Source: Nocardia sp. NBC_01730
GTDB lineage: Bacteria > Actinomycetota > Actinomycetes > Mycobacteriales > Mycobacteriaceae
DNA length: 64,000 nt
Direction: 5' to 3'
Assembly (NCBI RefSeq): GCF_035920445.1
Contig: NZ_CP109162.1
Span: forward strand, 4,650,001-4,714,000
Each line of letters starts with the position of its first letter. Positions within the stretch are counted from its first letter, which is position 1. Position numbers and translations under genes: made by a program. Positions 35,372 through 54,291 of the stretch are shown here, piece after piece. Under the pieces are notes generated by a model. That model made no database searches, was not told the DNA's origin, and worked only from the letters and a program-made list of their open reading frames with translations.

Positions 35372-36808
35372 TCAACAATCGGATCGGAACGGAAGGCACA
35401 GCGGCAGCAAATTCAGTTGGGCCGGTGTTTCCGCGACGGTCGGAGGTGGCCCAACGACCTCGGTGGGCGACGTCGGCAATGGTCTCTGCTCTACGGCGTC
35501 ACCGTGCGGGGTCGAGCAGGCGACGGCCAGCAGCCAGATGGCGCCGATGATGACCGCGATCGATGCCGCGGCCGCGATCTGCTGCGGCCGATGGCCGCCC
35601 CCCGCTTGTGGCTGTGCGGTTGTTCGGCCAGCCGTACTCGGGAGCGCCGCGGTGATTCGCCGGAGATCCGCAATGCGTGGTCGACGCTCGACGATGACCG
35701 GTGTTGTGGGCCATCGCAGTGGCCGGGCTCCGGTGTTCGACGTGGATCGCAGTGACAGCCGATGCTGCGGTGGCGGCGTGGGGTGCGAGCGCGATGATGC
35801 AGGGGCGGGGCGTACTGGCCGGTCGGCGTCGGATTCGATCCACGACGACCACCGGTCCGTGAAGGGCGACGACAACACGGGCACTGATTGTGCAGCGGAA
35901 TCGAGTGCCGGGCCCGACGACAAGGGCTCCGATGCTGAGTGTTCCGGTGCGGCGTGTTCCGGTGCAGCAGGCTTCGGCGCAAAAGATTCCGACGCCACTG
36001 GGGCAATCGGCGCCACGCCTGACACCCCGACTGTGGAATGCGCTGGCGGGACACCCGAATTCGCAGGCGTACCGGCGGCGGTCGAGATTCCGGTGGCAGG
36101 CGTGTCGTCGACCGGACGAGGCTCGCGCGCCGCGTTTTCGAGCGCCGCAAGTGCAGTCCCGGCACGCAGCTTCCGCTCCAGCGGAAAGCCGTCCGCAACC
36201 AGATCTTCGAGAGTCACCTGATCGGCCAGGTCCAAGTCGCCGAGCAGGGCGTGCACGCGCTCTGCGGTCCAGATGAGCTTTCGGCTCACGGTGCGGTGGA
36301 ACCAGGCGCGCAGCTCGCGAGGGCTGGATCCGAGCAGCACCCCGCAACCGCGCCTGCGCGTTTCGATGTTCAGTGTGATGTTCGAGTCTCGGGGCGGCAC
36401 CACGACGATCAAGCCGTCGACGAAAGCGTCGGCGTGGTGCTTGCGCACCAGTTCCTCCAGGTTCAAGACGTTGCTCGACACCTGGTCGAACGGGCTGCTG
36501 TCGTGGTCGCGCACGTGGATCGGGTCACCCTCGAAGCCGGACAGCCGCCAGCGTCCGTTGGCCTGCACCGAGAGAACGCCTGTCATGGCTTCCGGCGCGG
36601 TCCCCTTCACCCCGACCACGACCGCAGCCCTGGGCGTGATCACGACCAGATCGGCTTCCCGCGCCTCTCCCTCGCCATTGTGGTCCGGTAGGTAGCACCC
36701 TGAGATCGCCAGTCCCACAATGACGTACTGCCCGGTCCAGGTCCGCATCCAGTCGAGCACACGCTGCTCGGATCGCGGCGCCGCCGTTCGTTCGTTGATG
36801 ACCAACAT
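35372..36808 (-). CDS. NERD-domain (nuclease-related) membrane-anchored protein
   Basis: A 478-residue protein. Residues 10-200 form a NERD-like domain (EQRVLDWMRTWTGQYVIVG, EADLVVITPRAAVVVGVKG). The usual catalytic pair is D then ExK; here Asp is kept in ADLVV, but the second motif is GVK, so the Glu of EVK is replaced by Gly. A long Pro/Ala/Ser-rich linker (about 240-420) leads to one membrane helix (IAVIIGAIWLLAVACS, about 432-447) and a short exterior tail. ATG 36808 is preceded by GGAGG eight bases upstream, so this start is preferred over the long frame to 37183. Nuclease activity is doubtful; a nucleic-acid or protein sensing role is possible. Confidence 0.75.
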   Translation of the reverse strand: MLVINERTAAPRSEQRVLDWMRTWTGQYVIVGLAISGCYLPDHNGEGEAREADLVVITPRAAVVVGVKGTAPEAMTGVLSVQANGRWRLSGFEGDPIHVRDHDSSPFDQVSSNVLNLEELVRKHHADAFVDGLIVVVPPRDSNITLNIETRRRGCGVLLGSSPRELRAWFHRTVSRKLIWTAERVHALLGDLDLADQVTLEDLVADGFPLERKLRAGTALAALENAAREPRPVDDTPATGISTAAGTPANSGVPPAHSTVGVSGVAPIAPVASESFAPKPAAPEHAAPEHSASEPLSSGPALDSAAQSVPVLSSPFTDRWSSWIESDADRPVRPAPASSRSHPTPPPQHRLSLRSTSNTGARPLRWPTTPVIVERRPRIADLRRITAALPSTAGRTTAQPQAGGGHRPQQIAAAASIAVIIGAIWLLAVACSTPHGDAVEQRPLPTSPTEVVGPPPTVAETPAQLNLLPLCLPFRSDC

Positions 36809-37042
36809 CAGCGGCCACCTCCATCGCGTTCCACACAATCGACCGCTCAACGATATTCGCCGCGGAGCCCGGAAATGATTCGAAAGGCACTGTAAGAGCA
36901 CGGCATTGGCAGCACTAGGGCAGTCCACGTCCAGCATGGCGACAGGAGCGCCGTACCGGTGTGCGCGGTCATCGGACACGGGTCGATGTTGGCCGGCAGG
37001 CGGTTCGCCGACATGTATCGCCTGGTTGGACGAGCTCCTGCC
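36809..37042. other. Short region upstream of the NERD gene
   Basis: About 230 bases that should contain the NERD-gene promoter. No gene, repeat or hairpin could be supported. Confidence 0.4.
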
Positions 37043-37179
37043 GTGGCGGAGAAGTTCATCCCGCTCACGGTCAGGAATGCGCTGCGCGACCGGAAGATTC
37101 CGATCTACGGCGACGGCCCGCAGCGGTAGCGCCGGTTGTACGTGGCCGATCACCGCACTGTGGTGCAGAGGGCCGCCGG
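37043..37179 (+). pseudogene. dTDP-glucose 4,6-dehydratase (RmlB-like) fragment with internal stop
   Basis: On the plus strand the frame reads VAEKFIPLTVRNALRDRKIP then IYGDGPQR, TAG at 37127-37129, and continues RRLYVADHRTVVQRAA. This matches the part of RmlB-like sugar-nucleotide dehydratases where the normal reading is EKxIPxxxxNALxxxxxPxYGDGxQxRDWLYVxDH. An in-frame stop occupies the middle of the match, and neither the NAD-binding head nor the rest is present. A relic, not a gene. Confidence 0.65.
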
Positions 37180-37824
37180 TCACCCACGCAGCGCGGCCGC
37201 CAGCGCCGGGTCGACGGAAGAGGCTATGGCGATGAGGGATTCGGCGAGAAGGTCGATGAGGTCGGCGCGCGGGATGGGTTCGGTGCGCAACCAGGTGAGG
37301 GTGGCTTCCTCGACGAAGGCGATCCAGCCACGCATGGCGAGCGTGAGGCGGGGGCGGTCGGCGGCGTCGACGGAGACAGGGGCCTCGGTGAGGATGATGC
37401 CGATGATGGCGTCCCGGGTCTGGTCGGCCAGCGGCGCCAGGTCGGGACTGACGCTGGTGGGGCCGCGCAGCAGCGCCAGGTAGGAGGTGCGGTTATCGCT
37501 GACGTATTCGACGTAGCGCTCGATCGAGTCGCGCAACATCTCGAACACCGCGAGGTTGCGGTCGGGGGTGACGCGCTGGAGCAACTCGGCGTTGGCATGC
37601 CGCACGATCGCAAGCTGAAAGTCCTGCTTGGTCGGGAAGTAGTGGAAGAGCAGACCGCGGGAGATGCTCGCCTGTTCGGCGATCTCGCTGATGGAGATGT
37701 CTTCGATGGCTCGATCGCCAAGCATCTCGGCGCCCAAGGTGATCAGCTGCTCGCGGCGTTCATCCGGACTCATGCGGACCCGCTTGGCGGTTTCCCCGGA
37801 ACTCCTCCTGCTCACCGAACCCAT
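37180..37824 (-). CDS. TetR-family regulator of the divergent oxidoreductase operon
   Basis: A 214-residue TetR regulator with a normal DNA-binding head: RREQLITLGAEMLGDRAIED, ISISEIAEQASISRGLLFHYF and PTKQDFQLAIV. The ligand domain (RYVEYVSDNRTSYLALLRG...) is of the type that often senses acyl or aromatic compounds. ATG 37824 leaves an Arg-rich N-terminal extension of 16 residues; ATG at MSPDERR is an alternative. It is divergent from the Baeyer-Villiger operon, and a perfect inverted repeat lies in the 70-base gap, so it probably represses both itself and that operon. Confidence 0.9.
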   Translation of the reverse strand: MGSVSRRSSGETAKRVRMSPDERREQLITLGAEMLGDRAIEDISISEIAEQASISRGLLFHYFPTKQDFQLAIVRHANAELLQRVTPDRNLAVFEMLRDSIERYVEYVSDNRTSYLALLRGPTSVSPDLAPLADQTRDAIIGIILTEAPVSVDAADRPRLTLAMRGWIAFVEEATLTWLRTEPIPRADLIDLLAESLIAIASSVDPALAAALRG

Positions 37825-43271: not shown

Positions 43272-44930
43272 ATGGCCGAGCTGCGACTGCGGGTGGTGGC
43301 CGGGATCGTGTCGGCGGGGCTGACGCTCGGCGTCGCCGAATTGGTCGCGGCTTTCGCCGACGCCCGCAGCGCACCGCTCAACGCCCTCGGCTCGGTCGTG
43401 GTCGATCACACGTCCGACAGCCTGCGCGAGTGGGCCATCGATACCTTCGGCACCGACGACAAGTCCGCGCTGTATCTGATCATGGGCGTGGTCGCCCTCG
43501 TCGTCGCCGGGCTGGCGGGAGTGATCGAACGCCCGTCCCGTGCCACGGGCTCGTGGTTGCTCGCCGCCTTCGGAGTGATCGCCGCCGCCGCGGCGGTGGC
43601 CCGCACCAGCGTCTCCGGTGCGCTACCGACGGTCATCGGTGTCTCGGTCGGGATCTATGCGCTGCGCGTGCTGACCCGCCGGATCGAGCGCACGGCCGAG
43701 GCCGAAGAGTCCTCTGCGTTCGAGCGGCGAGACCACCGAACACCGGACACCGGAAGCGAATCCGGCAGGCCGAGCGACGAAGCCGCGCCTCCCGCCAGCG
43801 CTGCGCGGGTACCGGCCGCGTCGTCCACGACGGCGGTCGACGCGGCGCAGCGGGCCGCCGCACCGGAGCGGCGGCAGGTTTTGCAGGGTCTGCTGGTGAC
43901 GGGCGGTGCGGCCGTGGTGACCGGGTTCGGCGGGCGGCTCCTCAGTGCCCGGCGGCGGGACGTGTCCGGTGAGCGAGCCGCGGTGCGGCTGCCGGAGCCG
44001 AGCGCTCCCGTGCAGCCTCTCGCGCCCGGCGTGGACCTGCGTGTTCCCGGGTCGACGCCGTACCTGACCGCGAACGACGACTTCTACCGGATCGACACCG
44101 CGCTGATCGTGCCCCAGGTGTCCAAGGACTCCTGGTCACTGCGCATCCACGGCATGGTGGACCACGAAATCGAGCTCACCTGGGCGGATCTGGCCAATCG
44201 GCCGGTGGAGGAACGCCTGGTCACGCTGGCGTGCGTGTCGAACCCGGTCGGCGGCGACCTGATCGGCAACGCGCGCTGGCTCGGCTACCGCCTTGACCAG
44301 CTACTCGCCGAGGCGGGACCGCACGCGGACGCCGACATGGCGCTCTCGCACAGCACCGACGGCTGGACCGCGGGCAGTCCGCTGTCGGTGCTCACCGACG
44401 GACGCGACGCCCTGCTTGCCATCGGCATGAACGGCGAACCCCTCCCCGTGCAACACGGGTACCCCGCCCGCCTGGTCGTCCCAGGTCTCTACGGCTACGT
44501 CTCGGCCACCAAATGGGTGACCGAACTGGAAGTCACTCGCTTCGACCGCGCCACCGCCTACTGGACCCGCCGCGGCTGGTCGGCCCTCGGCCCGATCAAG
44601 ACCGGCACCCGCATCGACACCCCGCGCGCCCGCGGCCGCATCGAGCCGGGCCGCATCCCCATCGCCGGTGTCGCCTGGGCGCAGCATCGCGGCATCCGCG
44701 GCGTGGAGGTGCAGATCGACAATGGCGCATGGCAGCAGGCCCGCCTCGCCGACGAACAGTCCGTCGACACCTGGAGACAGTGGGTCTTCGACTGGGATGC
44801 CACCACGGGCCCGCACACCATCCGCGCCCGCGCCACCGATGGCACCGGCGAAACCCAGACCGCCGAGCGCAGCGACGTGGTCCCCGACGGCGCCACCGGC
44901 TACCCCACCGTCACGATCCAGGTCGGCTGA
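43272..44930 (+). CDS. Membrane-anchored molybdopterin oxidoreductase (sulfite-oxidase-like)
   Basis: A 552-residue protein with an N-terminal membrane region (helices about 8-28, 65-85, 95-112, 118-138) and a further hydrophobic stretch around 205-220 (LLVTGGAAVVTGFGG), then an Oxidored_molyb domain. The molybdenum-binding Cys is Cys321 in VTLACVSNPVGG. YLTANDDFYRIDTAL and PARLVVPGLYGYVSATKWVTELEV are typical, and the Ig-like Mo-co dimerisation domain follows (GVEVQIDNGAWQQARL). The catalytic domain should face the outside. Resembles the M. tuberculosis Rv0218 type; the reduced or oxidised compound is unknown. No heme partner is next to it. Confidence 0.88.
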   Translation: MAELRLRVVAGIVSAGLTLGVAELVAAFADARSAPLNALGSVVVDHTSDSLREWAIDTFGTDDKSALYLIMGVVALVVAGLAGVIERPSRATGSWLLAAFGVIAAAAAVARTSVSGALPTVIGVSVGIYALRVLTRRIERTAEAEESSAFERRDHRTPDTGSESGRPSDEAAPPASAARVPAASSTTAVDAAQRAAAPERRQVLQGLLVTGGAAVVTGFGGRLLSARRRDVSGERAAVRLPEPSAPVQPLAPGVDLRVPGSTPYLTANDDFYRIDTALIVPQVSKDSWSLRIHGMVDHEIELTWADLANRPVEERLVTLACVSNPVGGDLIGNARWLGYRLDQLLAEAGPHADADMALSHSTDGWTAGSPLSVLTDGRDALLAIGMNGEPLPVQHGYPARLVVPGLYGYVSATKWVTELEVTRFDRATAYWTRRGWSALGPIKTGTRIDTPRARGRIEPGRIPIAGVAWAQHRGIRGVEVQIDNGAWQQARLADEQSVDTWRQWVFDWDATTGPHTIRARATDGTGETQTAERSDVVPDGATGYPTVTIQVG

Positions 44931-44957
44931 GCTCGATATCGGATCAATTCGGCGATC

Positions 44958-44980
44958 GGTTCGGGACCGCCATCCCGACC
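44958..44980. terminator. Possible bidirectional terminator
   Basis: GGT-t-CGGGA (44958-44966) pairs with TCCCGACC (44973-44980), with one bulged base and a 6-base loop, in the space between the convergent molybdopterin oxidoreductase and ubiX genes. Confidence 0.4.
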
Positions 44981-44990
44981 ATGACCATTC

Positions 44991-45632
44991 TCAGCGATAA
45001 CCGTTGTCCGCTGGTTCCTCGACCCCGGACACCACGAGGCGAGCACCCCCATTGGACTCAGCGCTCGGTGTGCCCCAGCGCGAAGTGAGCTCGTTCTCGA
45101 TGCCGAACTGGTCGAGAACCCGCGCGACGATGTGCATGACAAGGTCGTCTACCGACTGCGGGAGGTTGTAGAAGGCCGGAACGGGTGGCACCACCGACGC
45201 TCCCGCGTCACTGAGGGAGAGCATGTTTCGCAAATGGATAGAGCTGAGCGGGGTTTCCCGTGGCACAATCACGAGCCTGCGCCGCTCCTTGAGCGTCACG
45301 TCGGCTGCGCGCGCGATCAAGTTCTCCGACAGGCCATGAGCGATCGCGGCCAGCGTGTTCATGCTGCAGGGAACAATGATCATCCCATCGGTTCGGAACG
45401 AACCGCTCGATATCGGTGCTGCTTGGTTCGAATGCTGGTAGTGCCGGTGGGCGAGAGCCAGCACATCCGGTACGGAGTAGTCGGTCTCGATCCGGATCGT
45501 GCGCTTCGCCCACTCGCTGAGTACCAGATGCACCTCGACCTCGAGGTCCCGCAGCGCCTCGAGCAGGCGGATCCCGATGATGGCTCCCGTTGCCCCGGTC
45601 ATCGCGACGATCAGTCGCTGCTCGCGCATCAC
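44991..45632 (-). CDS. ubiX: UbiX-like flavin prenyltransferase
   Basis: A 213-residue HFCD-family flavoprotein, GTG 45632 overlapping the ubiD stop (GTGA); ATG 45629 is the next codon. FMN and prenyl-phosphate motifs are VAMTGATGAIIGIRLLEAL at the start, SGSFRTDGMIIVPCSMNTLA and LVIVPRETPLSSIHLRNML. It joins dimethylallyl phosphate to FMN, making the prenylated FMN that UbiD enzymes need. Paired with ubiD directly upstream in one operon; it should activate that partner. C-terminal 30 residues are not conserved. Confidence 0.93.
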   Translation of the reverse strand: MMREQRLIVAMTGATGAIIGIRLLEALRDLEVEVHLVLSEWAKRTIRIETDYSVPDVLALAHRHYQHSNQAAPISSGSFRTDGMIIVPCSMNTLAAIAHGLSENLIARAADVTLKERRRLVIVPRETPLSSIHLRNMLSLSDAGASVVPPVPAFYNLPQSVDDLVMHIVARVLDQFGIENELTSRWGTPSAESNGGARLVVSGVEEPADNGYR

Positions 45633-47074
45633 CGCTGCCCGTAACCGTACTCAGCCCAGCGACCGAGAACGAGCCGCTGAATGTCTTCGGTCCAGCCATC
45701 CGCGAAGTCGACTACCCGGGTGTGTTTGTGCCGGTACTCCGAAGACCAGCTCGTGGGGAAGGTCGCATCCATGATCCACGCACTGTTCTCCCACGTGCTT
45801 CGCTCTTCCGGAGTCAGGTGCGGCAAGAGCGGGTTCGTCACGGGAAGCCTCCGGACCACTTCGAAACGGTCCGGGTGCAACCGGGTCGCGATCGCCCACC
45901 ACACTTGGTCCATGTCGGTGATGTCGACGTCATCGTCCACCAGAACCAAACCCGAGGAGAACATCCGATAACCGGAGAACACCGAGGCGAAGACACGCTT
46001 TGCGAGACCAGGACGTGCCTTGGCCGAAACTACGGTGACAATCGGTGGAGACGGCAGGAAGACGGATACACCCGGCACACCGGCGGCTTCAAGCCGGCTC
46101 TTGATCAAGGCGCTGACCATCAGAGACATCGGCGTTCCGTTGTCGTCGTACGGCTTGCTCGGATTAGCCATCGTGAAGATCGGGTTCGCTCGGTGGGTGA
46201 TGCACGAGACCCTGGCGACCGGACTCAGACCGCTGTGCGCGGCGTGACCGGTGTACTCGCCGAATGGTCCTTCCATGGCTAGATCGCCGGGGTGCACCTC
46301 CGCCTCGATGACGAACTCCGCTGTCGCCGGGACGAGAAGATCGCTTGTCTCACACTCGACGAGGGAAACCGGGGATCCTTTCAGCGCGCCCGCCATGGCG
46401 GACTCACTCACCCCTTTCTCGAAGGGCGTCATCGCTGCCAGGCTGGAGTGTGGATCGGCGCCGATCACGACAGCGATGGGCATGGGCTTGCCTGCGGACT
46501 TGTACCTTTCCAGAATTCCGCCGCCGTGCTGCTCGCTCGGCAGCAGCAGGATGCCGAAGCTGCGCTCGTCGTGCACCATGCACCGATATGTGCCCCAGTT
46601 CGTCCAACCGGTGTCCGGATCCTTGGTCACAACGATGCAGGACGTCCCAACGTAGCGTCCGCCGTCGATCGACTTGATCCACGGCACCGGCAGATCCAGC
46701 AGGTTGGCGTCATCTCCCTGGTGGATGATCTCCTTGCAGGGGGCGGAATCGCGATCGACGACAACTGGCTCGACCGGCTTGCTCAGCTTCGTCCGAATCG
46801 ACTCGATCAGGTCCAGCGGGTGAGTATCTATGGGACGTTCGAGTGCAGTCGCCACCCGACCGAACAACGACCGCGAGTCCGGCCCCATCGCCACCCCTAG
46901 GACGCGGTGCCCCGGATATCCCTTGATGTTCTCGAAAAGCGGTGCAGGGGCGCGTCGTTCACAAGCCAGCCGCGTGATGGCACCGAGCTCCTGGTTCCAG
47001 TCGACCTCGGCGGTGATCCGGAGCAGTTGCTCTCGCCGTTCGAGCTGCTCGATGTAGTCACGTAGATCCTGCAT
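45629..47074 (-). CDS. ubiD: UbiD-family prFMN-dependent decarboxylase
   Basis: A 481-residue decarboxylase with the family N-terminus MQDLRDYIEQLERREQLL and the catalytic segment AMEGPFGEYTGHAAHSG, containing the Glu that acts as acid in the E-R-E set; other conserved elements are GTYRCMVHDERSFGIL and NWGTYR. UbiD enzymes reversibly decarboxylate aromatic, heteroaromatic or unsaturated acids using prenylated FMN. The N-terminal section resembles hydroxyarylic acid decarboxylases. The ribosome site GGAAGGACG precedes ATG 47074. Lies 105 bases after the P450 gene and overlaps ubiX, so the three form one operon. Confidence 0.93.
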   Translation of the reverse strand: MQDLRDYIEQLERREQLLRITAEVDWNQELGAITRLACERRAPAPLFENIKGYPGHRVLGVAMGPDSRSLFGRVATALERPIDTHPLDLIESIRTKLSKPVEPVVVDRDSAPCKEIIHQGDDANLLDLPVPWIKSIDGGRYVGTSCIVVTKDPDTGWTNWGTYRCMVHDERSFGILLLPSEQHGGGILERYKSAGKPMPIAVVIGADPHSSLAAMTPFEKGVSESAMAGALKGSPVSLVECETSDLLVPATAEFVIEAEVHPGDLAMEGPFGEYTGHAAHSGLSPVARVSCITHRANPIFTMANPSKPYDDNGTPMSLMVSALIKSRLEAAGVPGVSVFLPSPPIVTVVSAKARPGLAKRVFASVFSGYRMFSSGLVLVDDDVDITDMDQVWWAIATRLHPDRFEVVRRLPVTNPLLPHLTPEERSTWENSAWIMDATFPTSWSSEYRHKHTRVVDFADGWTEDIQRLVLGRWAEYGYGQR

Positions 47075-47179
47075 GTCGTCCTTCCGTCCGAGGCGGACCG
47101 ATGATGATGCCGCGATGGCAGCGAAGAGCGAGTGGAGGAATCAACGCCCCGCCGATAACGGGCATGTGGATAGCGAGCC

Positions 47180-48481
47180 TTAATTGTTGGTCGGTAACTG
47201 GCTGGCATCCAGGGACAGCCCGACGGGTTGCAGGTGCGAGGTGAACTGCTCGATGACCTCAGCGCCCTGAGTCGGAGCCAGTCGGTAGCGGCGCAGGATA
47301 GCCGCGGTGGACAAGGCGGCGACGGCGTATACCCAATGGGTCCCCTTGCAGTAACTGGTGCCCAGCGAGAACGGCAGGAATGCATTAGCCGGTCCAGCCA
47401 GGTCTGAATCGGCCCAGCGCTGCGGCAGAAAAGCATGGGGATCGAAGTAGTTGGCAGGATCCCGTTGGATGGGGTACACGGCGATGCGCACCTGCATCCC
47501 CGGCTCCAAGTGCTGGTCACCGATGTCGACCGCCTGGCAAGCGACCCACCCCTGGATCCATGCGGTCGGGTAGAGCCGCAGAGTCTCATGCATGGCGTGG
47601 CCGGTGGAAATCAAGTCGGCCGGGTTGAGCGCCTCGGGGGTCCCACTACTACCGAGAACAGCGAGAGCTTCCTGGCGGAGCCGAGTCTGGTGATCAGGGT
47701 GCTTTGCCAGTTCGTGCAGCATCCACGCGGTGACAAGGCCGGGACCGGTCTCCACTCGCCACAGGGCATGTGCCACCGCGAAAACCACGCTGCGTAGATC
47801 GGTTTGGCCACGTTTGTGGGCGGCGGCCATCAGTGTCGACAGCAGATCGGGACTGTCGACTTCGACACCGCCGCGTCGCCGGTCGACGGCACGCTGGACC
47901 CGGGACCCGATCTCGGCCGCGGCCTGGGCAAAGCGGGCCTTCGCATCGGGGTCATCGGGTCGGCCGACGCCACGCACGACACCGGGAGCGGCCGCGCGCA
48001 TGGTGGCGTGCAGACCAGTCATCAGATCGGCGTCGGGTCCCAGGCAGAGCAATGCCGCCAACCGGGAGCTGAGTTCCAGCGCACCATCCAACGCGGGCCA
48101 ACCGGTCGCCGCCGGTGGATGAGCGTCCAGGCCCGCATCGGCCGCGGCCAGCATCGCCGGGGCGAGCTTGCGCACCGAGGCAGCTGTCCAGGCCGGCGTC
48201 ATCCAGGATTGCACCGTAGCTCGGCCGGGCGGCAGCTCGGTCGATGTTCGCCCGCCGCCAGAGCCCTCAGCCGAATCGACGTAAAACCTGCTCGGCAAAA
48301 TGTAGGTTCCCCGAGGAGCACGCAATACCTCCTCGGCGAGCGCGGCATCGACGATCACCAATGTGGAGTCGTCGTACCACCAACAGCGTGGCAGCGGACG
48401 GGTGTCGGGAGCGCGCAGCAGAGACATCCACCCGCGCTCCTGACGACCCGTCTGCGCACTCGAGGTGTTCACTAACAACAC
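47180..48481 (-). CDS. Cytochrome P450
   Basis: A 433-residue soluble P450. The ExxR motif is in HETLRLYP, the heme-Cys loop in FLPFSLGTSYCKG (Cys378; the conserved Arg two before the Cys is replaced by Ser-Tyr), and the I-helix acid/alcohol pair is Glu-Thr in WRVETGPG, without the usual AGG context. GTG 48481 starts an open frame; TTG 48478 and GTG 48472 are alternatives, the last with AGG upstream. There is no ferredoxin gene beside it, so electrons must come from elsewhere. It lies 32 bases after a 39-codon micro-ORF and 105 bases before ubiD, all on the minus strand. Substrate unknown; could be the micropeptide or the aromatic acid of UbiD. Confidence 0.9.
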   Translation of the reverse strand: MLLVNTSSAQTGRQERGWMSLLRAPDTRPLPRCWWYDDSTLVIVDAALAEEVLRAPRGTYILPSRFYVDSAEGSGGGRTSTELPPGRATVQSWMTPAWTAASVRKLAPAMLAAADAGLDAHPPAATGWPALDGALELSSRLAALLCLGPDADLMTGLHATMRAAAPGVVRGVGRPDDPDAKARFAQAAAEIGSRVQRAVDRRRGGVEVDSPDLLSTLMAAAHKRGQTDLRSVVFAVAHALWRVETGPGLVTAWMLHELAKHPDHQTRLRQEALAVLGSSGTPEALNPADLISTGHAMHETLRLYPTAWIQGWVACQAVDIGDQHLEPGMQVRIAVYPIQRDPANYFDPHAFLPQRWADSDLAGPANAFLPFSLGTSYCKGTHWVYAVAALSTAAILRRYRLAPTQGAEVIEQFTSHLQPVGLSLDASQLPTNN

Positions 48482-48510
48482 CTAATTGACATGATATCTA
48501 TCGATCCGAC

Positions 48511-48530
48511 CGATCAGTCGTGGCTGATCG
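48511..48530 (-). promoter_or_regulatory. Stem-loop at the end of the micro-ORF
   Basis: CGATCAG (48511-48517) and CTGATCG (48524-48530) form a perfect 7-base inverted repeat around 6 bases. It overlaps the last codons and stop of the 39-codon ORF and lies about 30 bases before the P450 start. It could reduce read-through from the small ORF into the P450, or be an operator. Confidence 0.5.
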
Positions 48531-48633
48531 AGTCCTCGACGAACAGGCCTTCCGGCACCCCGGGACCGTCGGTCACTCCCCACCCGTATTCCCACGTGGG
48601 CAGCTCCGTGCGCTCAACTTCCACAGCATCCAT
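48514..48633 (-). CDS. 39-residue micro-ORF upstream of the P450 (possible peptide precursor)
   Basis: ATG 48631-48633 to TGA 48514-48516. A strong ribosome binding site, GGAGG, ends 8 bases before the ATG. The 39-residue peptide begins MDAVEVERTELP, an acidic leader-like stretch, followed by an aromatic cluster with Trp14, Tyr16 and Trp18 alternating (TWEYGWG), then a Gly/Pro-rich part and the acidic end VEDSISHD. It has no Cys and no membrane or signal segment. It is followed after 32 bases by the P450 and then ubiD and ubiX on the same strand. P450-linked peptides with Trp/Tyr cores are known (atropopeptides, biarylitides), so a modified peptide is one reading; an accessory protein or a leader peptide are others. 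I recognise no family. Confidence 0.6.
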   Translation of the reverse strand: MDAVEVERTELPTWEYGWGVTDGPGVPEGLFVEDSISHD

Positions 48634-49007
48634 GATATTGTCCTCCGTCTTACCAACAACCCCAAAGTGAGTGTTGCTAGGTGGCAGCCTCGCTCACGTA
48701 TCACACGTTCTCGTGATGGGGGCCTACAGGGTATCGCGACTATCGTCCCCCTACAACACGTACGAGCTCGGTCTTTCCCGAACCACTGCGCCAGGACCTA
48801 GGACTCGACCTTCAGCCGTCCCCGAGAACACCCAAGAGTTACTCGACTGCACTGGATCGACCCAGGGGCCGGGTGACCCATGGCGGCGGCAAAATTGTGA
48901 AATAAGGATTTTACCTGCGACTTCGGCGTTCCTTCTCAGGCGGGCGCTGCCGCATGCGGTAACGATCTCGGTTACCGTGCCGGTCCGTTCCGAAAGTCGT
49001 TGCCGTG
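48634..49007. other. Region upstream of the micro-ORF, before the IS remnant
   Basis: About 370 bases with no supported gene. It should carry the promoter of the minus-strand micro-ORF/P450/ubiD/ubiX operon. The best -35/-10 look-alikes near 48740-48770 (TTGTAG and GATACC on the minus strand) are weak and short-spaced, so none is called. Confidence 0.45.
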
Positions 49008-50160
49008 CCCGCGTTGTCATCACCTCCCGTCCTTCTCGCCGATACCCTGCCAGGCCGCGCCCCGGGGCGAGGCGGACGACAATCCTCCATTGGATCGCTG
49101 ATTCCTGTGGGATTGCTGGAAGTGTTGAAGACGGTCGGTGATCCGCGCAAGCGAGGCGGAGTGCGCCAGCGAGTCGGCACCGTGCCGACCGTGGCGCCGA
49201 CCGTGGCGCCGACCGGCGCGCGGTCGTTCGCCGCGATCACCCAATGGGCTGATGGGGCGCCGGTCGGCATCATGGTGCAGCTGAGTGTGAGTGGCCGGGT
49301 GCCGTCGGAAGCGACGATCCGCAGGCTGCCGCACCAGGTGCCCCCGACACCATCGACGAGGTGGATGTGGCTGCGCACCAGCGTTTTCCGCGGCAGTCGG
49401 GTGATCGTGGTCGACGGCAAGACCCTGCGTGACACCCGAGACACCGCGGAACCTGGTGCATCCGCGCGCCGGGCTGGGCGAGCGTGCCGGTCGCCCCCCA
49501 GATCGACGTCGGCGCGAAACCAACGAAATACTCTGTCCGCAGGCGCTTTTGACATGTTCGGGCATCACCGGTGCGGTGATCGCCGCCGATGCCATGCACT
49601 GCCGGGGCGACACCGCCACGATGATCACCGACGGCGGCGGCCATTACATCCGCACCGTCGAGTCCGATCGACGCGACTTCCATGAACGCGTCAAAGCCCC
49701 TGCCTGGAAAGACATTCCGCTGCGCGGCGATCTCGACCGGACGCGATCACGGCAGGCGGACACCCCGCACGCTGAAGACGACAGAGATCTCCGATAGCAT
49801 CGGGCTCCCGGTGCCGCACAGGCGCTAGGGCTGACCCGCACCCGTAGGTGGGGCGCAAGCCCGGCAAACGCGCCCGCACAACTGCCTATGCCGTCACCAG
49901 CCTCATTGTCGCCGACACAACCCCCGAACAGGTCGCCGAATGATTGCAGGTAATGGGAAGATCGAGGACTACCCGCACTGGGTCCGCGATGGTTCCTTCG
50001 ACGAGGACCGCTGCCGGATCCACACCCGCAGGTCATGACTACCCTCCGCAACACCGCCATCGGCCCGCTACGGCCGGTTGGGCATACCAACATCGCCGCC
50101 GCGCCGCGACACCATGGCCTACGACTTCAACCGGCCCGCCTGACTACTGCTCGCCCGCTG
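49008..50160 (+). mobile_element. ISAs1-family transposase remnant, multiply frameshifted
   Basis: Consecutive pieces of an ISAs1-type transposase appear in different frames. LLEVLKTVGDPRKRGGVRQR and ARSFAAITQWADGAP (about 49115-49260), EATIRRL and VIVVDGKTLRDTRD (49310-49440), then SGITGAVIAADAMHCRGDTA and GGGHYIRTVESDRRDFHERV (49550-49700), TTAYAVTSLIVADTTPEQVA (about 49880-49940), EDYPHWVRDGSFDEDRCRIH (49965-50030) and TTLRNTAIGPLRPVGHTNIA (50038-50095). Segments needed between are missing or shifted, and stops interrupt the order. The element cannot encode an active transposase. It marks the accessory island with the P450 operon on one side and the M20 gene on the other. Confidence 0.8.
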
Positions 50161-50322
50161 AAACACGACTTGGCCGCGCCCTGCAGGTGGCCCGAGTGCG
50201 CCATCCCCTCGAGCCACCCGACCCTGCGATCGGCCCCTGGACTGCACCACCCTCGGGTGTAAAGATCCCTGGTAACGCGGAACGCTCACAAGATAGCGCA
50301 GATGGACACGAGGAGACACGTT

Positions 50323-51528
50323 ATGGACCTCTTGGATGACGCTCGTGAAATGAGTACATATCTCAGGCATCTACGCCGAGAAATACACCGCGAGCCAGAG
50401 GTCGGCCTTTCTCTGCCGAAAACTCAGGAGAGAGTTCTCAACGCACTGGATGGGGTTCCTCTGGAAATATCCACTGGGATCGAAAGTACCTCGATCACGG
50501 CGGTACTCCGCGGAACAGCCGAGTCGCCGTCGAATGGCAGACGACGCACAGTCCTCTTGCGCGGTGACATGGATGCGCTACCGATCCACGAGCAGTCCGG
50601 TGAAGACTTCGCCGCGACGAACGGCGCGATGCACGCCTGTGGCCACGATCTGCATACAACGGCACTGGTAGGGGCCGCTCGACTACTGGCCGCACAGAGA
50701 AACCGGCTCTCCGGCGACGTGGTATTCATGTTTCAACCCGGCGAAGAAGGGTGGAACGGCGCCGAAGCAATGATCCGAGAAGGAGTGCTCGATGCTGCGG
50801 GACGACGGGCCGACCATGCCTATGCTATTCATGTTTCGTCCAGTCAGTCTCCTACCGGCCTAGTGGCCAGCCGTCCCGGAGTAGTGCTGGCCGCTGCTTA
50901 CACGCTCGAGGTTACGGTCTCCGGCCCGGGTGGACACGGCGCGATGCCGGACAAGACGAGGGATCCGATCACTGCGATTGCCGAGATGATCGGCGCACTA
51001 CAGACTGCGGTTACCCGGAATTTCAACGTGTTCGATCCAGTCATACTTACAGTCGGCACGTTACATGCGGGCACTCGTCACAACATCATCCCCGAGGTCG
51101 CATCATTCGAAGCGACCGTCCGTACGTTTTCCTCTGATTCCGAGCCCAGATTACGAGAGATATTCACCCGCTGTCTCAAAGGTTTGGCCATGGCGCATGG
51201 TGTCGATGTCGACATTCGGTTCAAACCAGAGTTTTCAGCAACAGTCAACGACTCCAGTGAGGTCGAATTCACCGCTGATGTGGTTCGAGAACTGCTGGGA
51301 GAGCGACGTTATGCCACAGCGCCACACCCGATCAACGCATCGGAGGACTTCTCCTTGGTACTGGATGCCGTGCCTGGTGCAATGCTACTGTTCGGCGCTT
51401 GTCCACCGGACGCGGATCCCGGTCGGGCACCGGGGAACCACTCTCCACTAGCCCGATTCGGTGACGCAATATTGCCAGACGTTGCCGCGTTGCTATCAGG
51501 GTTTGCCATGGCTCGGTTGACCGAGTAA
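50323..51528 (+). CDS. M20-family amidohydrolase (peptidase/aminoacylase)
   Basis: A 401-residue metallo-amidohydrolase of the AmhX/HipO group. Metal ligands appear in LLRGDMDALPI, MHACGHDLHTTALVG, QPGEEGWNGAE and HAYAIHV, with the final His in GNHSPLARFGD; the dimerisation domain starts at VSGPGGHGAMPD. It would cleave N-acyl amino acids, amidated auxin-like compounds or short peptides. ATG 50323 is chosen for AGGAG seven bases before it; ATG 50302 has none. Codon use is visibly less GC-rich than in neighbouring genes, and an IS remnant sits upstream, pointing to acquisition by transfer. A link with the P450 operon is possible but unproven. Confidence 0.85.
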   Translation: MDLLDDAREMSTYLRHLRREIHREPEVGLSLPKTQERVLNALDGVPLEISTGIESTSITAVLRGTAESPSNGRRRTVLLRGDMDALPIHEQSGEDFAATNGAMHACGHDLHTTALVGAARLLAAQRNRLSGDVVFMFQPGEEGWNGAEAMIREGVLDAAGRRADHAYAIHVSSSQSPTGLVASRPGVVLAAAYTLEVTVSGPGGHGAMPDKTRDPITAIAEMIGALQTAVTRNFNVFDPVILTVGTLHAGTRHNIIPEVASFEATVRTFSSDSEPRLREIFTRCLKGLAMAHGVDVDIRFKPEFSATVNDSSEVEFTADVVRELLGERRYATAPHPINASEDFSLVLDAVPGAMLLFGACPPDADPGRAPGNHSPLARFGDAILPDVAALLSGFAMARLTE

Positions 51529-51543
51529 TGAGTTCGAACTCAT
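51528..51543. repeat. 16-base perfect palindrome at the end of the M20 gene
   Basis: ATGAGTTCGAACTCAT overlaps the last base of the M20 stop codon. It is a perfect palindrome with no loop and could be a binding site or part of a terminator. Confidence 0.5.
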
Positions 51544-51618
51544 GGGTTTATCGGGTCGAGGGTGAAGCCGGTTTCGGCTAGTAATCCGTCGAGGGAGGCA
51601 GCACTGATTCGCCGACAC

Positions 51619-51655
51619 CCCGTGCCCCGCGCGCGGATGGCTTGCGGGGCACGGG
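51619..51655. terminator. Hairpin terminator between M20 and MFS genes
   Basis: CCCGTGCCCCGC (51619-51630) pairs perfectly with GCGGGGCACGGG (51644-51655) around 13 bases. It lies between convergent genes and ends 10 bases before the end of the MFS gene, so it can stop transcription from both sides. Confidence 0.75.
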
Positions 51656-51664
51656 TTCGCGGAT

Positions 51665-53146
51665 TCAGCTCACCATCGAATCTGCCTTGTCGCGATCTTC
51701 CCGCAGTCCTGCCGGGGCCGACTTTCCATGCCGGACGAACAGCGCCGAAGCCACGACGCCGATGAGCAGGATGCCTGCGGGCAGCAGGGTGGACTGGCCG
51801 AGCGCGGTGCTGAAGGAGTCCTTCACGAACTCCGGGATCGGGCCCTGGCCCGCGCCGCCCTCGGCGACCTTGCCTCCGCCGAGTCCATTCGCTGACATCC
51901 TTGCGGCGATCAAGGCGCTGATCGCCGCGCTGCCGAGCACCGAACCCACCTGGCGGGTGGTGTTGTAGACACCTGCGCCCGCACCGGCCTGCTGCACCGG
52001 GAGGTTGTGCGTGGCGGTGGCCGCCAGCGGCGCCCAAATGCAGGCGTTGCCGAGGCCCCCCAGACCCGCGGACACCAGGAACAATGCCAGCGAGGAGTCC
52101 GGCTCCATCAACGCGGAGAAGCAGAACACTGACAGCGCGAACAGAGCGAATCCGACGGTGGGCACGATCCTCGGGTGCAGTTTGTCGGCGAGTTTGCCGA
52201 TCAGCGGGGAGCCCACGCCGGTCACGAGCGCCATCGGTGCGAACACGAGCGCGGACTCGGTCGGCGACATTTCCCGCACGGCCTGCAAGTAGAAGAACGA
52301 CGGCACCATCAGCGAGGTCACCGCCCCGCCCATCGCGGCGATGGCGGCGGTGGACAGCCCGTAGTTGCGATCGCGGAACAAGCTCAGCGGCAGCAGCGGC
52401 TCACCGGTGTTGCGCCCCTGGTTGACCAAGAATGCGGCGAGCACGAGCGCGCCCGCGCCGATCATCAGCCAGATGCGCGGCGACCAGTCGTAGTTGTTGC
52501 CCTCCTGGATGCCGAATACCAGCAGGAACATGCCGACGCCGCTGAGCACGACACCGGGAATGTCGAACTTGTGCTCATGGGTCGGCAATGCGGGCACCAG
52601 CCAGACCGCCAGCGCGAAGGCGATGATGCCGACCGGGACGTTCACTATGAAGATCCACTCCCAGCCGAGGCTTTCGACCAGAACGCCGCCGAGAATCGGA
52701 CCGACCAGGGTGGCCAGACCCGCGACGCCGCCCCACAGACCCATGGCCGCGCCGCGCCGATCCGGCGGGAAGGTCCTGGTGATCACCGCCATGGTCTGCG
52801 GCGTCATCAGTGCGGCGCCGATCCCCTGCACGGCGCGCGCGGCGATCAGCATGCCGATGGTGCCGGACAGACCGCACCACAGCGACGCGGCGGTGAACAC
52901 TGCGAGACCGATCAGGTAGATGTTCTTGGGGCCGAAGCGGTCACCGAGTCTGCCGGTGACCAGCAGCGGCACGGCGTAGGCGAGCAGGTAGGCGCTGGTC
53001 ACCCAGATCACCTGGGAGATATCGGCGTGCAGGTTCGTCATGATCGCGGGATTGGCGACCGCGACGATCGTCATGTCCAGCAGGATCATGAAGAAGCCGA
53101 CGACAAGCGCGACTAGCGCGAGCCACGGATTGCGTTGTGTGGACAT
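51665..53146 (-). CDS. DHA2-family drug efflux transporter (MFS)
   Basis: A 493-residue EmrB/QacA-type transporter with about 14 membrane segments. Motif A is in TGRLGDRFGPKN, motif C in VGPILGGVLVESLGWEW, and the start FFMILLDMTIVAVANPAIMT includes the DxT(I/V)VNVALP-type motif 1. It should export drugs or lipophilic ions using proton motive force. ATG 53146 has AGGAA eight bases upstream. It lies 11 bases after the PadR gene on the same strand, so it is expressed with and controlled by PadR. Confidence 0.92.
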   Translation of the reverse strand: MSTQRNPWLALVALVVGFFMILLDMTIVAVANPAIMTNLHADISQVIWVTSAYLLAYAVPLLVTGRLGDRFGPKNIYLIGLAVFTAASLWCGLSGTIGMLIAARAVQGIGAALMTPQTMAVITRTFPPDRRGAAMGLWGGVAGLATLVGPILGGVLVESLGWEWIFIVNVPVGIIAFALAVWLVPALPTHEHKFDIPGVVLSGVGMFLLVFGIQEGNNYDWSPRIWLMIGAGALVLAAFLVNQGRNTGEPLLPLSLFRDRNYGLSTAAIAAMGGAVTSLMVPSFFYLQAVREMSPTESALVFAPMALVTGVGSPLIGKLADKLHPRIVPTVGFALFALSVFCFSALMEPDSSLALFLVSAGLGGLGNACIWAPLAATATHNLPVQQAGAGAGVYNTTRQVGSVLGSAAISALIAARMSANGLGGGKVAEGGAGQGPIPEFVKDSFSTALGQSTLLPAGILLIGVVASALFVRHGKSAPAGLREDRDKADSMVS

Positions 53147-53157
53147 GGATTTCGTTC

Positions 53158-53844
53158 CTAACTCAGATTCTCCGATGACCGAATGTTTGTGGCGGAGTTC
53201 GCCGCGGCCTTGCGCGGCACGGGCAGTTCGGCGGAGTCGGCGTCCGACCACGTGTCGTCGTGGTCGGACGTCCGCACGCCGGTCTCGGGGTCGAAGTCCT
53301 CCCATTCGAGTGCGCCGCCGTCCAACTCGGCGATGAACTCGTTGACCCACGTGGCTTCGGCGGCGAGCATCGCACGCAGAAACGGGAGCGAGATCCAGTA
53401 ACGACGCGGGACGACGTGCTCGTCGGCCCAGGCGACCATCATGTCGGTGTCGGCGAGTTCGGCCTCCAGCCGGCCGACCCGTTCACGCAGCAGCGCGAGC
53501 ACATCCTGTTTGGGGAGATTGTGCAGTTCCCCCAGCGCCACCGGAAACCTCGGATACTCCGGGATGGGCCGCCGCACGATCTCCGCGATCCGGTCGCGCA
53601 ACGCGTCCCTGCCGCGCGCGGTGATCCGGTAAGTGGTGCGTTCGGGCCGGTTGCCCGCTCGGTCGACACCTTCGGAGCGGACCAGCTCTTGGTCGGCCAG
53701 CCGCGTGACAGTGTGGTACAGCGAGCCGGGCCGCACCTTGACCAGCTTGTCTTCCCGGCGTGCGATCAGTAGCTGATACATCTCGTAGGGATGCATGGGC
53801 CGCTCCTCGAGCAGCGCGAGCACAGCGATCGCCAATGGCGTCAC
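53158..53844 (-). CDS. PadR-family regulator of the MFS pump
   Basis: A 228-residue PadR regulator. The winged-helix head is TPLAIAVLALLEERPMHPYE followed by LVKVRPGSLYHTVTRL and ERTTYRITARGRDAL, and a C-terminal Vir_C/helical dimer domain follows (LRERVGRLEAELADTDM). GTG 53844 gives the standard start; the open frame goes back to 54195 without homology. The tail is acidic and Ala-rich. It precedes the MFS gene in one operon, and a 44-base palindrome about 120 bases upstream is the probable operator. Confidence 0.92.
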   Translation of the reverse strand: MTPLAIAVLALLEERPMHPYEMYQLLIARREDKLVKVRPGSLYHTVTRLADQELVRSEGVDRAGNRPERTTYRITARGRDALRDRIAEIVRRPIPEYPRFPVALGELHNLPKQDVLALLRERVGRLEAELADTDMMVAWADEHVVPRRYWISLPFLRAMLAAEATWVNEFIAELDGGALEWEDFDPETGVRTSDHDDTWSDADSAELPVPRKAAANSATNIRSSENLS

Positions 53845-54291
53845 GGATGGATACGCCTGCTGCCCCAATGTCTGGTCACCTCCCGCAGTTCGCCCCGGCT
53901 TTCGGTCATCGAGGAGCCGGGCGTCACTCGCGACCCGCGACAGCAGTCCGGGTCTCCGACATACTCCATACTTAATATTCCATGCGGAATATACGGTGTG
54001 GAGTAAAGGGGATGCAAGTCTCATGAGCTTGCGGAAAGGCAGTCGGGACACGGAATTTCGCCCGCGCGGCCGCGACGGAACACGGTCAGCCCAGTTCAGG
54101 CGGGCACATGCGACGGCGGTACCAGCAGCAGGCTCGACAACAGCTCTGGACGGAGTCATATGCGTAGAACAGACGCGGCGCACTTGTCGCCACAACGGTC
54201 GGCGACCGTCGTGACCTCCAGCGACCCGATCGGCGGCCCCGTCGAAAACCCCGGAGACCAGCGGATCATGCGCCCGGGGACACCCTGGACG
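53845..54291. other. Intergenic region holding the PadR operator
   Basis: About 450 bases between the PadR gene and the end of the minus-strand ProX gene. It contains the large palindrome at 53962-54005 and otherwise only a GC-rich stretch without convincing coding potential. The A/T-rich centre around 53970-53995 (cttaatattcc, ggaatatacgg) is probably also promoter. Confidence 0.5.
53962..54005. promoter_or_regulatory. Large palindromic operator upstream of PadR
   Basis: TACTCCATACTTAATATTCC (53962-53981), centre ATGC, then GGAATATACGGTGTGGAGTA (53986-54005). The right arm matches the inverse of the left at 16 of 20 positions, including both ends and the inner ATATTCC/GGAATAT. It lies 118 bases before the PadR start. 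Its size and symmetry suggest a site bound by a PadR dimer or pair of dimers. Confidence 0.7.

Follow-up and report, generated by a model that had tools for sequence, protein, structure and literature searches.

A cytochrome P450 gene preceded by a 39-codon micro-ORF and followed by ubiD and ubiX lies on an island inserted in the stretch of Nocardia sp. NBC_01730 DNA analysed here (64,000 nucleotides; the window). We read the island as a composite of two acquired modules, a RiPP-like peptide-P450 pair and a UbiX/UbiD pair, and give this reading a probability of about 0.45, slightly short of an even chance. The first module (48633-47180) would be a minimal RiPP-like pair, in which synthesis of the 39-residue peptide comes first. 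The P450 encoded beside it would then oxidise the Trp14-x-Tyr16-x-Trp18 segment, most likely by cross-linking Trp and Tyr residues two positions apart, and peptidases of the cell would release the product from the modified peptide. In the second module (47074-44991), UbiX would make prenylated FMN, the cofactor with which UbiD would remove the carboxylate of a small acid, aromatic or heteroaromatic. The second module was probably placed downstream of the first, which would not require it. The sequences show the genes, the conservation of the peptide in one homologue, the insertion and the presence of the expected catalytic residues; that the peptide is a P450 substrate, how it would be cross-linked and trimmed, what UbiD would decarboxylate and whether the modules are independent is our inference. 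The P450-peptide pair is plausibly new, and its link to UbiD/UbiX is unproven.

The four genes lie on the minus strand in the order micro-ORF, P450, ubiD, ubiX (Table 1). The original prediction, a 39-codon ORF with GGAGG 8 nt before ATG 48633, ahead of genes for a P450, UbiD and UbiX, is confirmed in the sequence. Also borne out are the spacing of 32 nt between this ORF and the P450 frame, which opens at GTG 48481, and the overlap of ubiD and ubiX at GTGA; nonetheless, GTG 48472 is likelier than 48481 as the P450 start, since the relative P0005 begins there. The P450 gene and ubiD are separated by 105 nt, and neither of the two terminator-like sites predicted in 44900-51700 falls within this gap. 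No sigma-70-like promoter was predicted in the same interval.

Table 1. Features of the island, with positions in the window
Feature	Position	Strand	Description
Insertion	44931..51600		Between sulfite-oxidase-like gene 43272-44930 and MFS gene 51665-53350; right end approximate
UbiX-type flavin prenyltransferase	44991..45632	minus	TIGR00421 272.4 bits vs cutoff 108.9; Pfam Flavoprotein 163.2 bits
UbiD-type prFMN-dependent decarboxylase	45629..47074	minus	Pfam UbiD 221.6 bits; PF01977, PF20695, PF20696
Cytochrome P450	47180..48481	minus	PF00067 100 bits; likelier start GTG 48472, 430 aa
7-bp hairpin AGGUGUU/AACACCU	48463..48483	minus	Perfect; likely P450 GUG start in loop (RNA fold)
Micro-ORF	48514..48633	minus	39-aa acidic small protein, W-E-Y-G-W motif; RBS GGAGG, 8-nt spacing, ATG
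Transposase-like remnant (DDE_Tnp_1_assoc)	49005..50050	plus	PF13808 28.1 bits, below cutoff 32.3, in frame 49005-49685; ends approximate
M20 amidohydrolase/carboxypeptidase	50302..51528	plus	PF01546; TIGR01891 278.2 bits; GC3 0.59

As first proposed, the micro-ORF is very likely a genuine small gene, judged from the protein-coding pattern in one homologue pair. A search covering 5.8 billion proteins gave three candidates and one homologue, P0009 of Nocardia sp. NBC_00881, a 42-residue hypothetical protein in which 36/39 residues are identical (E 3.9e-16). P0009 differs by an in-frame 3-residue insertion near the N-terminus and by three substitutions near the ends, and an unbroken core of 28 residues (residues 6-33) is unchanged, including Trp14, Tyr16 and Trp18, so that the Trp14-x-Tyr16-x-Trp18 motif is identical in the sole homologue found. 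Of 20,000 upstream regions simulated with a first-order Markov model, 2.5% contained by chance an ORF that was 35 codons or longer, had an SD-like site and ended at most 60 nt from the P450. Given this rate, the sequence of the ORF and its ribosome binding site is by itself mild evidence, and the P0009 match is the stronger. The micro-ORF matched nothing in Pfam or NCBIfam at E values up to 10. In the PDB, likewise searched to E 10, the lone entry returned was a diterpene synthase (E 2.3), which was taken as chance.

A small toxin, a regulator or some other protein unrelated to the P450 is the most improbable of the readings weighed for the micro-ORF: it would fit the lack of a family match and an adjacency known in one genome only, yet the short spacing and the strand shared with the P450 argue against it, and the W-x-Y-x-W motif would suit an oxidised precursor. 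Decidedly improbable, too, is a regulatory reading without any chemical role for the peptide, in which translating the micro-ORF as a leader would control the P450 by way of a hairpin on its start. One arm of a 7-bp hairpin does contain an SD-like AGGUG, and the loop contains the GUG start; translational control of the P450 by this hairpin at 48463-48483 is possible. However, the stop codon of the ORF lies 30 nt before the hairpin, the fold of the 101-nt stretch is not unusual (z -1.44), and the 28-residue core is identical in the homologue while the ends vary. An attenuator or riboswitch was considered separately and set aside, as no Rfam family matched and the hairpin fold is not unusual.

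We favour a peptide that is the substrate of the adjacent P450. Short peptides beside P450s are often their substrates, and in support of two modules the small ORF opens the unit, lies immediately ahead of the P450 and has a strong ribosome binding site of its own. Published P450s of short peptides join Tyr to Trp and Trp to Trp at residues i and i+2 (PMC11002830), and ApyO joins Trp to Tyr once its YLY motif becomes WLY, an engineered WxY variant (PMC13192836). The W14-E15-Y16-G17-W18 segment offers two aromatic pairs two residues apart, and in view of the published cross-links we take the P450 to be peptide-oxidising and probably cross-linking. Against such a pair, the peptide carries its aromatic motif internally, 21 residues before the C-terminal end, and the P450 fits none of the curated RiPP P450 models. 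A Pfam scan of 16 neighbouring ORFs turned up no RRE and no peptidase clearly dedicated to the pair.

In the P450 itself, E244-T245, E299-R302 (ExxR) and Cys378 are invariant across all five P450s aligned, which favours the two-module reading, and we take these to be the proton-relay pair, the ExxR motif and the heme ligand, respectively. It falls outside every curated NCBIfam family, as do its four relatives, with scores of 100.6 bits for albaflavenone monooxygenase, 83.5 bits for pentalenene oxygenase and 66.9 bits for ApyO, all far below the cutoffs. The nearest solved P450 by sequence is chain 3dbg (87.6 bits), presumably CYP170A1 (albaflavenone synthase), with a match that covers residues 180-408 only. 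This likeness to terpene oxygenases helps the main rival, a single small-molecule pathway in which the P450 would oxidise an aromatic or terpenoid compound (converting an aryl methyl group into a carboxylate, for instance), the carboxylate would be removed by UbiD with its prFMN, and the micropeptide would be an accessory or stabilising protein. We regard this rival as somewhat unlikely. The best NCBIfam models of the P450 are indeed small-molecule oxygenases, and the genes form one apparent operon with no terminator predicted inside it; however, the pathway leaves unaccounted for a Trp/Tyr-rich core that is more conserved than the ends of the peptide, and neither a terpene synthase nor any other pathway gene was recognised among the island ORFs scanned.

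The pair resembles published pairs of P450s and short peptides in having an ORF of 20-100 residues next to a P450 and aromatic residues two apart; it differs in its internal motif, in its P450, for which the genomes searched gave no close relative, and in having UbiD/UbiX next door. Atropopeptides share the two-gene layout of precursor and P450 and an aromatic-rich precursor of up to 40 residues (PMC11450843). The peptide here has none of the KSLK-like leader motifs of that class (KSLK, RSLK, ESLK, KSRK, KPLK, PSLK) and no xWxxxx core directly before the stop, with Trp14 and Trp18 lying 25 and 21 residues before the C-terminus. Biarylitide precursors were searched for as peptides of 5-8 residues with aromatics at 3 and 5 (PMC13417212), as against 39 residues here with aromatics clustered at 14, 16 and 18. 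In the aminopyruvatides (ApyA/ApyO), a P450 modifies YxY/WxY of a ribosomal peptide that has a C-terminal aromatic-x-aromatic-Asp (YxYD; PMC13192836); the present peptide ends in SISHD, similarity to the ApyO model NF050147 is weak (66.9 bits vs a cutoff of 525), and the Pfam scan of the 16 neighbouring ORFs found no MNIO, RRE or B12-rSAM. By these definitions the peptide falls outside the atropopeptides, biarylitides and aminopyruvatides, and it may still act in a similar way. If the pair works as proposed, it would add a P450 that oxidises peptides and had no close relative among the genomes searched, and a precursor unlike those of the three classes tested, found through adjacency and not homology. 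A literature search, by titles and the starts of abstracts, found no unit of P450, peptide and UbiD.

UbiD and UbiX form an intact prFMN decarboxylase pair, which would act on a small acid, either aromatic or heteroaromatic, and probably has a function separate from that of the peptide. The UbiD domains and R-E-E residues are present, and the UbiX score is well above the family cutoff (Table 1). When the UbiD entry P0003 is aligned with 18 relatives out of the 103 listed, all 19 sequences share R164, E273 and N159, while E268 occurs in 18/19 and H183 in 16/19; R164, E268 and E273 are presumably the catalytic residues. The best solved relatives are the PA0254/HudA chains (254 bits), which share the UbiD family, the R-E-E residues and an Asn at a ligand-contact position: N312 aligns with N318, which lies within hydrogen-bonding distance of bound imidazole there (PMC7976604). 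The PA0254/HudA pocket differs at W322, which aligns with Met316 here. Among the 18 relatives, the position of N312 holds one Asn and one Asp, the others having Ser, Ala, Tyr or Trp. A polar heteroaromatic acid as the UbiD substrate is a guess from these residues. The catalytic residues and the alignment of N312 with a heterocycle-contacting Asn would also suit the small-molecule pathway.

UbiD could instead act on the peptide, in a single RiPP pathway in which, for example, an unsaturated or aromatic acid made by the P450 is decarboxylated; we hold this to be improbable. The shared strand, the tight order and the third-position GC of the four genes (0.74-0.79) favour it, and strand and composition count against two modules. 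The island also carries the only UbiD and the only UbiX found in the genome, a fact that equally suggests a self-sufficient pair. Against a single RiPP pathway, UbiD sites take small acids, to our knowledge, and the full-text literature searched, with most subscription journals outside its scope, shows neither a RiPP with prFMN nor a RiPP together with UbiD and a cytochrome P450. It is a long shot that the island represents a new class of RiPPs, with one Trp-x-Tyr-x-Trp micropeptide worked on first by a P450 and then by a prenylated-flavin decarboxylase to yield an oxidised, decarboxylated product. Were the peptide a UbiD substrate, the biosynthesis of ribosomal peptides would gain prenylated-flavin chemistry, a step for which the same literature, again with most subscription journals outside its scope, holds no precedent.

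The distributions of the P450 and UbiD differ, which further disfavours a single RiPP pathway. The P450 has four database relatives at 72-92% identity among 8000 candidates scored (from Nocardia sp. 2YAB30, one from lgn, one from jgi and a Mycolicibacterium MAG), three of them at 72-75%. UbiD, among 8000 candidates scored, has its own entry P0003 and then relatives at 60% identity or less, which include metagenome proteins and, among the named ones, Acidobacteria, Binataceae, Acetobacteraceae, Dehalococcoidia and Desulfobacterales. The contigs of the P450 relatives P0006, P0007 and P0008 (sizes 6155, 18434 and 151397) are matched by none of 104 UbiD entries, one of which, P0054, gives no size for comparison. 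Had the two genes travelled jointly, a UbiD of about 70% identity would be expected on at least the two longer contigs; none was seen, which points, indirectly, to separate histories of P450 and UbiD. The P0006 contig is perhaps too short to show ubiD, so that module independence rests on about two contigs; if Nocardia sp. 2YAB30 or NBC_00881 had a UbiD at least 90% identical, cluster P0003 would conceal it. The original idea of one pathway of peptide, P450 and UbiD/UbiX loses ground here, given P450 relatives at 72-75% identity with no matching UbiD entry, and the same observation tells against the small-molecule pathway.

Within the genus, besides this genome, the micro-ORF was found in 0/147 genomes (E limit 0.01), the P450 in 0/149 (E <= 1e-60) and UbiD in 0/147 (1e-100). 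Only this genome passed the limits among 401 genomes of the family and 296 of the phylum searched with the P450, 301 of the family searched with UbiD, and 96 of the order searched with the micro-ORF, each set including it. The relative P0008 had no match in 386 genomes of the genus of G199, a search that had no known positive. For the P450 searches in family and phylum, the UbiD search in the family and the P0008 search, the best 4 or 5 candidates were scored per listed genome. Genome contigs searched with the P450, and viral contigs, gave no relative beyond this genome within the limits, and plasmid matches are distant (31-33% identity for the P450, 35-41% for UbiD). The limits for the enzymes were strict (1e-35 to 1e-100), and distant relatives could escape them. 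The adjacency of peptide and P450 is seen in this genome alone.

Synteny identifies the island as an insertion in this genome. The sulfite-oxidase-like flank is matched in 26 relatives besides this genome (27/31 including it), and nine stretches from nine of those 26 were compared. In all nine, the MFS and PadR genes known from the window come next after the sulfite-oxidase-like gene, and tblastn (E <= 1e-8) found no match at the site to UbiX, UbiD, the P450, the small ORF, the transposase piece or M20; given this absence, 44931 to about 51600 is an insertion. In L035, the alignments to the two flanking genes end 67 nt from each other. Composition lends weak support: third-position GC is 0.74-0.79 in the four operon genes, 0.59 in M20 and 0.82-0.91 in the five flanking genes measured, yet other genes of the window are equally low (35372-37183, 0.74; 53158-54195, 0.76).

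The gap between the flanking genes varies among the relatives (L035-L043), being nearly empty in some and holding a Uma2 endonuclease gene in L036, L038 and L039, and two ORFs without a Pfam match in L040. These varied contents suggest that the spot between the sulfite-oxidase-like and MFS genes takes up genes.

The transposase remnant beside the small ORF, presumably ISAs1-like, has no full-length frame among the listed ORFs, and the one other frame translated contains many stops. No listed repeat stood out at the island ends as a transposon end. Flanking IS debris had been taken to mark a transferred unit; the insertion stands, with 9/9 relatives lacking the island, and the debris lies on one side only (49005-50050). 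The M20 gene was considered as a pathway member and is treated as a separate arrival on account of its third-position GC (0.59 vs 0.74-0.79). Its membership in the P450-peptide-UbiD system is doubtful, and relatives of M20 at 53-55% identity occur in other genomes.
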